Origin: a virus
Length of the DNA: 26,888 bases
Virus record (IMG/VR): IMGVR_UViG_3300025646_005431
Location: 1-26,888 of that record
Strand: one strand, 5' to 3'
The notes beneath the pieces are model-generated. The model had not been told where the DNA came from. It searched no databases and saw only the letters and a program-made list of their open reading frames with translations. Of the stretch, positions 14,623 to 22,632 are shown piece after piece. The stretch's first letter is position 1. The number at the start of each line of letters is the position of its first letter. The translations under genes and the position numbers were made by a program.

Positions 14623-14633
14623 TGATATTTGAA
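14623..14633 (+). promoter_or_regulatory. Candidate promoter for clpC-like gene
   Basis: Plus-strand TGATATTTGAA. It is intermediate between the late-type motif (TGATATTTATA) and the host -7 box (TAnnTTTG). It lies 40 bases before the ATG at 14674 and divergent from the motif at 14604-14615. Confidence 0.4.
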
Positions 14634-14673
14634 AAAACTATGTTTATCATTACCCTATAAAAAAATAAAATAT

Positions 14674-16716
14674 ATGATTGAATCAATGGATAACGGTAAC
14701 AAGGGTAAATCACCTAAATCAACGTCAGAATCCTCAACACCTGTTTTAGATAACTTCAGTAGGGATTTGATTAAATTAGCTGAACAAGGTAAGTTAGACC
14801 CTGTTATTGGTCGTGAAAGAGAGATTACAAGAATCGCACAAATTTTATCTCGTAGAAAGAAAAATAATCCCATTATTATTGGTGAACCTGGTTGTGGTAA
14901 GACCGCAATTGTTGAGGGGTTGGCAATTAAAATTTTTAACGGAGAATGTCCTCGTAATCTAATGGACAAACGTATTGTTTCATTAGATATGACATCAATT
15001 GTTGCTGGGACAAAATACCGTGGTCAATTTGAGGAACGTATGAAGGTGATAATTGAAGAGTTGCAAACAACACCAAATACTATTGTGTTTATTGATGAAA
15101 TTCACACGATTGTAGGCGCGGGGAATTCATCGGGCTCATTAGACGCATCTAACATTTTTAAACCAGCACTTGCTCGTGGAGAAATCCAATGTATTGGAGC
15201 AACCACTTTAGATGAGTATCGTAAGAACTTTGAAAAAGACGGAGCATTGGAGCGTCGTTTCCAAAAAGTAATTGTTGATGCCGCAACCAAAGAAGAGACC
15301 TTGGTTATATTAAAAAATGCTAAAGACAAATATGAAACATTCCATAAAGTTTCTTTTTCTGATGAAATTTTAAAATTGTGTGTTGATTTGGCTGATAGGT
15401 ATATTACTGATAGAGAGTTTCCTGATAAGGCTTTTGATATTATAGATGAGGTTGGTGCTCGTAGTCAGGTGGAGATTAAAATGCCCGAGATAATTGAGCA
15501 ATTAAAACAAGAGGCGTCTAAAGTTAAACAAGACAAACTTGATGTTGTTAAAAAACAAAACTACGAGGAGGCGGCCAATCTACGGGATAAAGAAAAACGA
15601 ATCTTAAATAAATTAGAAAACGAAAAAATTAAATTCGAAGAAGAATTACAAACTAAAAAGAAAGAGGTTTTACCTGAATTGGTTTTTGAGGTTGTTTCTA
15701 ATATGACTAAAATACCTTTAAATAAATTAAATGCTGACGAAACAAAATCATTGTCAGAATTAGAAAATGTATTATCTGATAAAGTTATAGGTCAGTCTGA
15801 AGCGGTTTCAAAAATCGCAAAATCAATTCGTAGAAATAGAATAGGAATTAAAGACCCTAAAAAACCTATTGGTTCGTTTATTTTCTTAGGGTCAACTGGC
15901 GTTGGTAAAACATATTTGGCAAAACAATTGGCTAAGGAAATTTTTGGTAGTGAAGAGAATATGATTCGAGTTGATATGTCTGAATACCAAGAAAAACATA
16001 CCATATCTCGTTTAATTGGTGCACCTCCAGGGTATGTTGGTTATGATGAAGGTGGACAATTAACAGAACAGGTTAAAAATAAACCATATTCCGTGGTGTT
16101 GTTTGATGAGATTGAAAAGGCTAATAAAGACATATTTTCAACATTACTTCAAGTATTGGATGATGGTCATTTAACTGATGGATTAGGTAGAAAAATTAAC
16201 TTTAAAAATTGTGTTATTATTATGACATCAAATGTTGGTGTTAAAAAATTACAAGATTTTGGAACAGGAGTTGGGTTTGAGACAAAGGCTAGTTCTTATA
16301 TTAAAGAGGAACAAAAACGCGAAATGTTAAAAAAAGAACTCAAGAGGTTCTTCGCACCCGAATTTTTAAATAGGATTGATGAGGTAGTTATATTCAACTC
16401 TTTAAATAAAGATGACGTTAAAAAAATTGTTAAACTTGAGTTACAACAACTTATGGTTAGATTGGAGTCTTTAAATTACAAAATTGTTTTAGACGACTCA
16501 ATTGTTGACACTATTTCTGAAGTAGGGTTTGATGAGATGTATGGTGCGAGACCAATTAAAAGAGCAATTCAAGATAAGTTGGAAGATTTTATTTCTGAAG
16601 AAGTTCTTAAGGGTTCTATTGTTGAAAACCAAGAATATGTTTTAATTTCGGAAAACAATGAAATTAAATTTAAAACCGAATCAAAGAGAGGTAGAAAGAA
16701 AAAAGAGGGTGGATAA
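14674..16716 (+). CDS. clpC: ClpC-like AAA+ unfoldase without N-domain
   Basis: 680 aa from the ATG at 14674; a TTG start at 14629 would lie on the promoter motif. Two AAA+ modules: Walker A GEPGCGKT at 70-77 and GSTGVGKT at 406-413, Walker B IVFIDE at 137-142 and VVLFDE at 474-479, pore loops KYRG (114-117) and GYVG (453-456), and sensor-type GARPIKR (624-630). The middle domain is short and carries a UVR-like segment ([18 protein letters not shown]), the mark of ClpC rather than ClpB. The loop with V-G-F at 533-535 matches the ClpP-docking tripeptide. The Clp N-domain, which binds adaptors, is absent: D1 starts near residue 25. It probably feeds proteins into host ClpP with changed selectivity. 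The tail is basic (KRGRKKK). The stop lies inside a terminator hairpin. Confidence 0.93.
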
Positions 16717-18867: not shown

Positions 18868-18898
18868 TTTGTTTTTTACAAAAAATTTATTATCTTTG
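18868..18898 (+). promoter_or_regulatory. Host-type promoter of tmRNA
   Basis: TTTG at 18868-18871, a 19-base spacer and TATCTTTG at 18891-18898 match the Bacteroidota primary-sigma consensus. The predicted start is about 20 bases before the mature tmRNA 5' end at 18925, leaving a short leader to be trimmed by RNase P. Confidence 0.8.
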
Positions 18899-18924: not shown

Positions 18925-19314
18925 GGGGGTAACTCGGAATTGACTGACATTGTTGGTTATTCGGGGCACGCAGTGAGAGGGTTCCTATCACTTAAATCTA
19001 TGGAGTCAACAATTAGACGGCAACGTTCTAGACAAAATGGCGACTATCGGTCTTATCCGTGAAGACGCTGCGGTTGTAGCCTAATCAGATTAGGAAACAC
19101 CATTCGGGTCGGGAGGACATTAACCCAGGAACAGAAGTCCTTATAGGGTGGAAAAACGGTTGAACCATAAATCGAATCGTCCATTGGTTGTCAGGTTTAC
19201 GATGGTGAAGAACAAACCGACTATTTTGGAATATTAGAAAATATTATCCTAAGCGTGTAGTCCTTAGTAGTCAAGATGGGCAACACGAGGGTTCGAATCC
19301 CTCTACCTCCACCA
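18925..19314 (+). ncRNA. ssrA: tmRNA (SsrA RNA), phage-encoded
   Basis: 390 nt. The 5' GGGGGTA (18925-18931) pairs over 7 positions (one G-U) with TACCTCC at 19304-19310, followed by A and an encoded CCA. The T-arm GAGGG-TTCGAAT-CCCTC is intact, and AAGCGTGTAGTCC near 19252-19264 matches the conserved 3' domain seen in E. coli (AAGCAUGUAGUACC). The best tag frame opens at GCG (19040) and reads ATIGLIREDAAVVA, ending at TAA (19082-19084). The stop sits in the hairpin CCTAAT-CAG-ATTAGG, as expected for helix 5. The other two frames hit stops without a degradation-tag-like end. The tag ends AVVA, not the common ALAA. It would bind SmpB from the host, tag stalled proteins and free ribosomes. Confidence 0.95.
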
Positions 19315-20163: not shown

Positions 20164-20577
20164 TTAAATCCAATTCTCACCACAAATCTCTTCTTTTGTA
20201 CTAAATTGTCGTAAGTGTCTTCTAAAATCTTTTAAGTACGGGTTATTACCTTGTTGTCCCCAATCAGCTATTGGAGCCGCCTGTGTTGAGTCATACTCCT
20301 TGGACCATCCCATATCGGTACCTATCCAACACATTATTGTTTTATATCCCGCCTTTTTCACTAAAGCCAATGCTTCATCATAGTCCGCCTTGTTTTTGAT
20401 ACTATAAACACCTTTAGCAACTTTATCTTCATCAGTTCCTAAACCTGCCATTCCGTCTTTAATAGTGTTAAATGCGGTAGTACCATTACCTTCGTGTAAT
20501 TTAATTTTTGATTCAGAAATAACTCTATTTACGATACGAACCAAATCAGATTCAGAAAGTCTAATAATTTTTTTCAT
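20164..20577 (-). CDS. Candidate internal head protein with annexin-like motif
   Basis: 137 aa. The N-terminus MKKIIRLSESDLVRIVNRVI followed by SE is a pattern I recognise from the start of many unrelated proteins of large Bacteroidota phages. It behaves like the capsid-targeting peptides of T4 internal proteins, cut after (I/L)-x-E: I20-S21-E22 fits, and L27-H28-E29 followed by G is a second site. The rest carries G-M-A-G-L-G-T-D-E-D (about 38-47), which resembles the G-x-G-T-D calcium loop of annexin repeats, and a VKKAGYKTIMCWIGTDMGW segment. The protein may be packed in the head and injected. Confidence in the gene is high, in the role moderate. Confidence 0.8.
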   Translation of the reverse strand: MKKIIRLSESDLVRIVNRVISESKIKLHEGNGTTAFNTIKDGMAGLGTDEDKVAKGVYSIKNKADYDEALALVKKAGYKTIMCWIGTDMGWSKEYDSTQAAPIADWGQQGNNPYLKDFRRHLRQFSTKEEICGENWI

Positions 20578-20616: not shown

Positions 20617-20654
20617 TGGTCCACGAAAAAAAATTGGTTGTAAACTTAAATTAT

Positions 20655-20696
20655 AAAAAAAGGGGGAAGAAATAACTTTCGTTACACTTCCCCCTT
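20655..20696 (-). terminator. Strong terminator of the giant non-coding RNA
   Basis: On the minus strand AGGGGGAAG pairs with CTTCCCCCT (9 bp), enclosing an inner helix TAAC-GAAA-GTTA capped by a GNRA tetraloop, followed by T7. On the plus strand there is no T-run, so it acts on minus-strand transcripts only. Confidence 0.9.
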
Positions 20697-21976
20697 GTTT
20701 GTCCTAGGAATCTAAACCTACTGAGTTGTTAGTGACACAACTACAGAACCCTATATCGTTGGGTGGTGCTAGCATCACGGGTATCTGTTTTTGACATTTT
20801 ATGTTTAACGACCCAAAATGTCTGTGGTGATAATACCATCCACATCCTAAAAAGTGGTCTTCCTTATTTTTTTACTGTAACCAAGGTGGTCTTTAGGTTG
20901 ACCCAACAGGGAGCTTTACTTTTTTGTCCTTTTCTTTAAGGGAAAAACAGTCTGTGTTAAAGTTGCATAACTATCACATCCAAAAACCTACGTAATAATT
21001 TGAAGAACAGTTTTGATTCATGACTTCAGGTCTTAACGTAATCACCTTCCTTCTCGTGGTTGGAATCACTTCTTTATGGCTAAGGGCTGAGAATACACCT
21101 TGTTGTTGAGAACCTTTAGGGACATTATTGTTTCTTCCCGTTTCCACTTCTTTTTGAGAAGTATTTCTCAGTGACGGTCTTTTAGGTTTACCACTCCTTG
21201 AGGTTTGAATTACTCTCATCTTACTTGACTCTTTCCGAGGATGCCTCCCCAGTTCGTCCTTGCGGGACTAAAGGTTTTTCGGATAACTACACATCGGCTT
21301 GGGACCTTTGTGTGCAATGAACGGCTCATTACTATGTAGTCACCTTTCATTCAAACCTGACGAACACTTTTCCTTCTATTGTACTTTTAAATGGTCTTTA
21401 ATTTCAAATAAAGAGATTGTGTTGTGGATTGTCGAAGTAGTGGTCCGTCATAGGCTTTGTTATCTTTTGAACAACAAAATACCAAACTACTCCGTGAGAT
21501 GTCCCCACCTCCATACTTCAAGACTACTTCAAGACACATGCTTTGGTAAGCTAAGGTCAAGGATAATGTCGGCACCACCCGTTTGTTATCATACCTTTCG
21601 GTTTTAAGTCTCCTCTGATATTGGAACCCACAATAACGACGTTGGAACATCATTTTTTGTTTGATTCCTACGGGTTATTCCTATTGGTGTTCCCACCTCA
21701 AACAGACGACCCACATCGCCTGTTCATCTAATCACTTTCCCTACAGCGTTGCCCTCGGTACTAAAGATTAAACGGTATCCCGCTTGTGTACTCGACCTCG
21801 ATTTCTCAAGACGCAAACCCAACACACTAAGGGTTCACTTTATCCCACTTTCGTGGTTTATTTAACGACCATACACGGCCGATTATCATTTACAGATTAT
21901 CATCACCCCGAAGGGTTACTTTCACCTGATGGATAATTCATACTTCAAAGAACGTTATCGGACTTTTCCGATTTTG
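20655..21976 (-). ncRNA. Giant structured non-coding RNA candidate (about 1.3 kb)
   Basis: Bounded by a host-type promoter (21982-22013) and a strong terminator. No open frame exceeds 88 codons and none has a protein-like composition. GC is raised: sampled 60-base lines at 21661, 20761 and 21841 have 30, 25 and 22 G/C. Hairpins in RNA sense: ATCGGA-AAAG-TCCGAT at the predicted 5' end (21957-21972), ACCC-TTCG-GGGT (21905-21916), CCAC-GAAA-GTGG (21845-21856), GGTG-GGAA-CACC (21686-21697), a 7-bp stem at 21703-21722, TGAGAA-ATAC-TTCTCA (21155-21170), GTCC...GGAC (21256-21268), an 8-bp stem at 20793-20822 and one at 20721-20745. It has no rRNA, RNase P, SRP or group II domain V signature that I can see. 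Size and phage setting recall GOLLD and ROOL RNAs, but I cannot confirm membership. Confidence 0.75.
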
Positions 21977-21981
21977 TTTTA

Positions 21982-22013
21982 CAAAGTTAAGAAAAATTTT
22001 TCAATCCGTCAAA
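21982..22013 (-). promoter_or_regulatory. Host-type promoter P3 of the giant RNA
   Basis: Coding strand TTTG (22010-22013), 20-base spacer, TAACTTTG (21982-21989), giving a start near 21976, just before the first RNA hairpin. Its sequence repeats that of P2 at an offset of 91 bases. Confidence 0.75.
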
Positions 22014-22064
22014 TTTTTCTTTTACTTTTTTTGAGAGTTGTATCTGAATCGTTATCTCTCTCAT
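21987..22064 (-). CDS. Possible 25-aa mini-ORF between P2 and P3
   Basis: Reads MREITIQIQLSKKVKEKFDG and ends KNFS. The ATG lies 9-11 bases after the P2 -7 box, so it would be at or next to the transcript start. The stop overlaps the P3 -7 box. The sequence could form an amphipathic basic helix. Its 3' half is made of repeat A, and repeat B could encode a related string in another frame but without a start. It may be a chance frame in promoter DNA. Confidence 0.25.
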   Translation of the reverse strand: MREITIQIQLSKKVKEKFDGLKNFS

Positions 22065-22072
22065 TTGTTTTA

Positions 22073-22104
22073 CAAAGTTAAGAATAATTTTTTGATTTAC
22101 CAAA
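22073..22104 (-). promoter_or_regulatory. Host-type promoter P2
   Basis: Coding strand TTTG (22101-22104), 20-base spacer, TAACTTTG (22073-22080). It fires about 90 bases upstream of P3, so it gives either a longer form of the giant RNA or a leaderless mini-ORF message. Confidence 0.7.
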
Positions 22105-22121
22105 TTTTTCTTTCACTTTTT

Positions 22122-22256
22122 TTAATTTTCTTTTTCAATATACACTTCATTGGTTCCAAATTCAAAAGCTCTAATAACAGCAAACTCTTGGTTTGAGGTG
22201 TAGAGTCTTTGTCCTTTGTCATTGAAGTAGTAGAAGATAACATTTTCTTCTTCCAT
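22122..22256 (-). CDS. Small hypothetical protein (44 aa)
   Basis: Reads MEEENVIFYYFNDKGQRLYT and continues to IEKEN. Too short for many gene finders, but it has a good start, protein-like composition and a full host-type promoter (P1) with a leader of about 58 bases. The 'FYYFNDKGQRLYTSNQEFAVIRAFEFG' type pattern suggests a small beta-rich fold. No family is recognised. No terminator is seen between it and P2, so read-through into the giant RNA is possible. Confidence 0.65.
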   Translation of the reverse strand: MEEENVIFYYFNDKGQRLYTSNQEFAVIRAFEFGTNEVYIEKEN

Positions 22257-22319
22257 AAAAAAGTTTTAAAGGTTAATAATACGTCAAATAACTAATAAGG
22301 TTGTTTCCTTAATGTTTTA

Positions 22320-22349
22320 CAAAGTTAATAAAAAAAACCTTTCTGTCAA
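22320..22349 (-). promoter_or_regulatory. Host-type promoter P1 of the 44-aa gene
   Basis: Coding strand TTG (22347-22349), 19-base spacer, TAACTTTG (22320-22327). It shares the 16-base core with P2 and P3. A late-type motif (TAATATTTATAAC) lies about 30 bases further upstream at 22381-22393, so the gene may be read early and late. Confidence 0.65.
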
Positions 22350-22436
22350 TACCCTTAGTAAAGATTTTTTTTGTTTTGTAGTTATAAATATTATCTTTTT
22401 TTTAAAAGTTTCTATTTATTTCATTTATACCAATAA

Positions 22437-22449: not shown

Positions 22450-22464
22450 AATTAATAAGAACAT

Positions 22465-22632
22465 ATGAAAAAAATCATTTTTGCAACAATGGTTACTCTT
22501 TCTATGGTGATTGTATCTTGTGGTGGTAACACTACCGAAACCACAGTTGAATGTTCCGATACTTGCAGAGTTGATTCATCTGCAGTTTGTTCGGATTCGG
22601 CTATGGTAGATACTTTACAAGTGGTGAGGTAG
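22465..22632 (+). CDS. Small secreted lipoprotein (55 aa)
   Basis: MKKIIFATMVTLSMVIVSC begins with two Lys, a hydrophobic stretch and the lipobox I-V-S-C at residues 16-19, followed by G-G-N. Signal peptidase II should cut before Cys19, leaving a lipidated peptide of 37 residues, acidic and Thr/Ser-rich, with three further Cys (30, 34, 42). The residues after the Cys (GGN) are not the K-D-D-E-type export signal used for surface display in Bacteroidota, so a periplasm-facing place is likely. Similar tiny phage lipoproteins act in superinfection exclusion (such as Cor or Llp) or as spanin-like o-spanins; either would be inference here. Confidence 0.75.
   Translation: MKKIIFATMVTLSMVIVSCGGNTTETTVECSDTCRVDSSAVCSDSAMVDTLQVVR

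Follow-up and report, generated by a model that had tools for sequence, protein, structure and literature searches.

The DNA analysed here, a viral fragment of 26,888 nucleotides referred to throughout as the window, contains between positions 20655 and 21976 a 1.3-kb stretch free of genes, and the question raised by this locus is what kind of RNA it encodes. The initial annotation proposed a giant ornate phage RNA, either a divergent member of a class such as GOLLD or ROOL or a representative of a new class. We conclude that the stretch is a GOLLD RNA gene, and not an especially divergent one, because it contains a full-length, 331-bit match to the Rfam family RF02032. Taken jointly, the identity of the RNA, its predicted transcript and its multimer formation have, in our estimate, a probability of about 0.72, a figure that excludes the role in translation considered below. 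GOLLD is a natural RNA known to assemble with its own copies into hollow cages that exceed the ribosome in size. The neighbouring genes include those for a T4-type terminase, portal and prohead protease, so that the window is a fragment of a T4-like tailed phage genome; the host is probably a member of the Bacteroidota, to judge from the promoter type alone.

The Rfam match and the alignments of relatives delimit the following parts of the RNA:

21084-21494, minus strand: GOLLD 3' domain, full-length match to RF02032, with covariation.
21368-21431, minus strand: variable linker of the 3' domain, with no tRNA inside.
21495-21976, minus strand: GOLLD 5' domain as found in this phage group, with about 20 helices, from its own alignment and covariation.

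The covariance-model search that the initial annotation had proposed was run with the families of Rfam 15. In the cmscan output, RF02032 matches 21084-21494 on the minus strand with 331.2 bits (cut-off 150, E-value 2e-95) over model positions 1-416 of 416; ROOL, OLE, HEARO and raiA gave no match in the stretch, even with E-values up to 1, and the proposed kinship with ROOL thus finds no support in the Rfam covariance models. Of the two alternatives offered earlier, membership in a known class holds, and a new class is ruled out for 21084-21494 by the full-length match together with the covariation of the Rfam structure. Neither the 5' domain nor the region beyond the 3' domain has an Rfam match, which could speak for a new class of RNA that only resembles GOLLD; yet a 5' region specific to the family is in itself characteristic of GOLLD (PMC12286853), and, given the match and the covariation, we regard such a class as highly improbable. 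The other hallmarks of GOLLD are a length above about 800 nt and a phage setting, and here the predicted length is about 1,320 nt and the terminase, portal and protease genes are present. GOLLD genes also often lie near tRNAs; none was found in the window, but relatives carry a tRNA-Met at the junction described below.

Relatives were sought through the neighbouring Clp ATPase, through patterns of the 5' and 3' domains, and among the huge phages in GenBank. About 90 distinct homologous loci were gathered from what are largely metagenome fragments, and profile searches yielded 99 distinct loci with both domains. RF02032 exceeded the cut-off in 42 of the 43 records tested, the sole miss (L304) being a locus that breaks off inside the 3' domain. 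A 3'-domain pattern with 14 fixed bases retrieved 120 viral stretches; neither nhmmer nor the profile recognised GOLLD in any of them, and their sole use was as random contigs in the tmRNA control below. The 5'-domain pattern, run against bacterial and archaeal genomes, gave no match, and hence names no host or prophage.

The Rfam structure provides the strongest test of the fold because it was taken from Rfam and not from the alignment. Imposed on a MAFFT alignment of 32 phage homologues, it has 92.9% of its cells paired, 74 of its 93 pairs changed on both sides, and 506 double-change cells compared with 137 +/- 11 in shuffles (which, like all shuffle tests here, ignore phylogeny); sliding the partners by 1-3 columns abolishes the signal. 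The conserved secondary structure of the GOLLD 3' domain is thus shown to be kept by compensatory changes. For the 5' domain, whose structure was predicted from its own alignment, 96.9% of cells are paired, 75 of 104 pairs are changed on both sides and 437 double-change cells compare with 124 in shuffles, so that the covariation anticipated by the initial annotation extends to both domains. No such 5' domain was detected in L006, the GOLLD of an Acinetobacter phage, in line with the less conserved, separately folded 5' region typical of GOLLD. Two metagenomic huge phages (L004 and L005, 635 and 642 kb) carry the same 5' domain, which is therefore not confined to one phage group. Such a large aligned set of freshwater phage GOLLD RNAs with a covarying 5' domain provides material for structure work.

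Covariation between columns, scored by a weighted G-test with APC correction in 83 sequences below 95% identity, ranks highest column pairs that are nearly all standard base pairs, and reveals three pairings outside the nested Rfam structure. One is a pseudoknot with 100% of cells paired and 5 of 7 pairs changed on both sides; another joins the loop of the P22-equivalent hairpin to the preceding linker (A2 columns 322-324 with 310-312); the third connects the two domains and stands at rank 69 of the G-test list. The elements involved are:

21443-21449, minus strand: 5' strand of a pseudoknot helix absent from the Rfam structure, partner 21359-21365, from covariation.
21709-21714, minus strand: 5'-domain hairpin loop GUGGGU, which can pair and covaries with the linker AUCCAC at 21424-21429.

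We considered equating the last contact with bridge B7 of env-38 GOLLD (L20 with J13/15) and do not claim this identity; the env-38 numbering could not be mapped.

The transcript is delimited by the following elements:

21982-22013, minus strand: flavobacterial-type (sigma-A) promoter motif, TTTG-N20-TAACTTTG, with the -7 box consensus from PMC9723704.
22073-22104, minus strand: another promoter of this type, 91 bases farther upstream.
21957-21972, minus strand: hairpin at the predicted 5' end of the transcript, AUCGGAAAAGUCCGAU, covarying helix 1 of the 5' domain.
20655-20694, minus strand: intrinsic terminator, a hairpin at 20662-20694 followed by a minus-strand U-run at 20661-20655.

The flavobacterial -7 box TAnnTTTG sits at -12 to -5 (PMC9723704), which would place the start near 21977 and suggests transcription by a host-type RNA polymerase. 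The promoter motif occurs four times in the window against 0.75 expected, a count reached by 1 of 100 shuffles, and with a 19-20-nt spacer it precedes 66 of 99 distinct homologues; in those examined for this, its distance to the start hairpin is the same. A further upstream copy with a TTG box lies near 22349. The GOLLD promoter is repeated in tandem on the minus strand at 22060-22360, and behind each copy comes a very short reading frame (by eye, 25 and 43 codons); promoter copies are also seen in relatives, among them L213, L264 and L284. A small predicted lipoprotein gene at 22462-22632 on the plus strand (MKKIIFATMVTLSMVIVSCGG...), with its own terminator, adjoins this promoter region.

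At the other end, the terminator is not listed by a simple terminator scan, and the predicted transcript, from about 21977 to about 20655, would measure about 1.32 kb. The initial annotation was accurate on these points: its host-type promoter, start hairpin and strong minus-strand terminator are all present, and its limits for the stretch differ from those of the predicted transcript by no more than a few bases. The compact tetraloop hairpins that it noted (UUCG at 21915, GAAA at 21855 and 21602, GGAA at 21696, among others) and the raised GC content (40.5% against 32.3% for the window) were recovered as well. A protein-coding reading, which it had dismissed, is ruled out by stop-free runs no longer than those in shuffles and by indels of which just 6-20% are multiples of three; no reading frame is conserved. 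Just behind the terminator, 20164-20577 on the minus strand encodes a 137-aa protein that begins MKKIIRLSESDLVRIVNRVI and has no significant match to a Pfam or PHROG family; an annexin-like reading of it is unsupported by Pfam.

The env-38 GOLLD forms a 14-mer with D7 symmetry, and GC and CG covary in its loop L21a, the pattern to be expected where a loop pairs with a second copy of itself (PMC12286853). The likely counterpart in the window, to judge from its order and sequence, is:

21260-21264, minus strand: loop CGCAA, putative L21a equivalent, with a self-complementary central dinucleotide.

The equivalent loop reads CGCAA in 50 of 83 sequences, (G)UCGA(A) in 22 and CAUAA in 2, with few other forms, so that its centre is GC, CG or AU, that is, self-complementary, in nearly all of them. 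The self-complementary centre therefore supports multimer formation, short of demonstrating multimers. By analogy with env-38, the copies are likely to join into a closed RNA cage, in which the linker at 21368-21431 would face the interior (PMC12286853).

Beyond the canonical 3' end, the RNA appears to continue into a second structured region:

20653-21073, minus strand: structured 3' extension of about 420 nt that opens with AGTGAYTCC, found in 19 of 92 GOLLD loci.
21074-21083, minus strand: junction at which relatives hold a tRNA-Met gene of 73-78 nt, absent here, from ARAGORN and alignment.

Among the 92 distinct loci with enough downstream sequence, ARAGORN finds a tRNA-Met(CAT) between core and extension in 14 of the 19 with an extension and in none of the other 5, which include the window; 8 further loci have the tRNA-Met without the extension. 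The gap between the core and AGTGAYTCC is accordingly 11 nt in the window and 82-89 nt in the tRNA-bearing relatives. In L231, a tRNA-like stretch is kept that ARAGORN does not accept. Within the extension, 16 of 28 pairs are changed on both sides, with 57 double-change cells against 22 in shuffles, evidence weaker than that for the core because the structure was derived from the same 13-sequence alignment. We therefore describe the extension as a candidate new domain. It could instead be an unrelated small structured RNA behind an ordinary GOLLD gene of about 900 nt, the two sharing a terminator: processing of the tRNA-Met that separates them in 14 loci would cut them apart, and in 59 of the 92 loci GOLLD is accompanied by neither the tRNA nor the extension. 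However, core and extension stay adjacent in the window, L207, L232 and L345, where the tRNA is missing, and wherever the sequence reaches beyond an extension hit on the GOLLD side, a GOLLD stands directly before it (the sole other hit, L132, begins at the end of a contig). Two separate genes thus strike us as a real possibility, albeit on the doubtful side.

On the opposite strand, and convergent with the GOLLD gene, lies a set of elements connected with translation and proteolysis:

18925-19314, plus strand: phage tmRNA, tag GNVLDKMATIGLIREDAAVVA, RF00023 match of 74.6 bits (cut-off 47).
18868-18898, plus strand: promoter motif of the GOLLD type before the tmRNA.
14629-16716, plus strand: Clp-type AAA+ unfoldase, same strand as the tmRNA.

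The tmRNA has the ends GGGGGUA/UACCUCC, a tRNA-like part with G3-U70 and an open tag frame, as expected of RF00023; ARAGORN misses it in the window, though it finds the tmRNA in relatives. In 36 GOLLD contigs found without reference to tmRNA, a tmRNA exceeds the cut-off in 14 (in one more it falls just below, at 45.6 bits), compared with 0 of 31 random viral contigs; the literature rate among phages is 2.3% (PMC9004378). The loci retrieved with the Clp query that hold GOLLD have a tmRNA in 29 of 29 cases.

Whether this proximity reflects a functional link is an evenly balanced matter, given that large phages might simply cluster their RNA genes in one island. GOLLD is known near tRNA clusters (PMC12286853, PMC6582537), tRNA arrays adjoin it at several of the present loci, and many tmRNA-bearing relatives are without GOLLD in the stretch examined. 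Against such an island, no tRNA is detected near the tmRNA-GOLLD pair in the window and many relatives, and the pair is close and oriented: of 45 distinct pairs, 39 converge, at distances of 0.13-3.5 kb, and 6 lie on the same strand, and 13 of 15 tmRNAs are within 3.5 kb of GOLLD, where random placement gives a mean of 1.4 and a maximum of 9 in 200,000 draws, all these statistics being uncorrected for relatedness. The existence of two arrangements suggests at least two origins of the tmRNA-GOLLD association. In L293, L315 and L354, the tmRNA shares the strand of GOLLD, which it precedes by about 0.5-0.7 kb, and has unrelated tags (ANVDYSTEYYAVAA, DEMSTMTFADLMDFVGADLAIA).

The tag in the window is 21 aa long, and 26 variants conserve an inner GNV[LI].K....GL.R as well as the hydrophobic end V.VA; this inner conservation is odd for a simple degradation tag. 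The unfoldase has a VGF-like loop, GTGVGFETK, which by eye we take to resemble the ClpP-docking loop of ClpC, and it could pass tagged proteins to the host ClpP.

The course of events that we envisage starts with transcription of the GOLLD gene of this T4-like phage by a host-type RNA polymerase, probably near 21977. The RNA would fold into the covarying 5' domain and the canonical 3' domain and most likely multimerise into a closed cage. Past the canonical 3' end, the transcript would continue through the second structured region, some 420 nt long, as far as the terminator. In relatives, RNase P would be expected to part core and tail at the junction tRNA-Met; in the window, this tRNA is missing, and the tail therefore probably stays joined.

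GOLLD is reported to rise during lysis and to bind ribosomes in pull-downs (PMC12286853). This published binding, the neighbouring tmRNA and the tRNA-Met end in relatives together hint that GOLLD helps to handle ribosomes or translation in the infected cell, a role that we tentatively put forward as its likeliest function, although at well under even odds; it may instead package or protect a different cargo. Whatever the role, it may be a mild one, since GOLLD is reported to be dispensable for production of an L. brevis prophage (PMC7567579). The recurrent, close and mostly convergent tmRNA link and the tRNA-Met end in relatives nevertheless offer a testable genomic lead towards translation. 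A more specific scheme, which we consider unlikely, is that the cage, the tmRNA with its own tag and the Clp unfoldase form a ribosome-rescue module, with the extension as a third domain that recruits a partner or cargo; if so, they would jointly act on stalled host ribosomes or their products. Counting against our main reading of the locus, the extension is absent from most loci, and most tested GOLLD contigs, many of them fragments, have no tmRNA above the cut-off.

Among known systems, ROOL is likewise a large ornate phage RNA, comparable in size and setting, and it too forms a cage, but the sequence and structure in the window are those of GOLLD. With the GOLLD family, including the marine env-38 RNA (PMC12286853), the RNA shares the whole conserved 3' domain and its structure, a separate 5' domain, the variable linker, the palindromic L21a-type loop, the phage setting and the link to tRNA genes. 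It differs from env-38 in length (about 1.32 kb instead of about 0.83 kb) and from known GOLLD RNAs in the structured 3' extension and the convergent tmRNA neighbour, as well as in the tRNA-Met at the junction between core and extension in relatives; the accessible GOLLD literature, which does not include the original description, yielded no mention of either the extension or the tmRNA link. A phage-borne tmRNA is shared with Bacillus phage G, mycobacteriophages and Melnitz (PMC4131195, PMC9004378), whereas the tmRNA described here is distinguished by its link to GOLLD and a Clp unfoldase and by a conserved tag of 21-22 aa (GNV...GL.R...V.VA).
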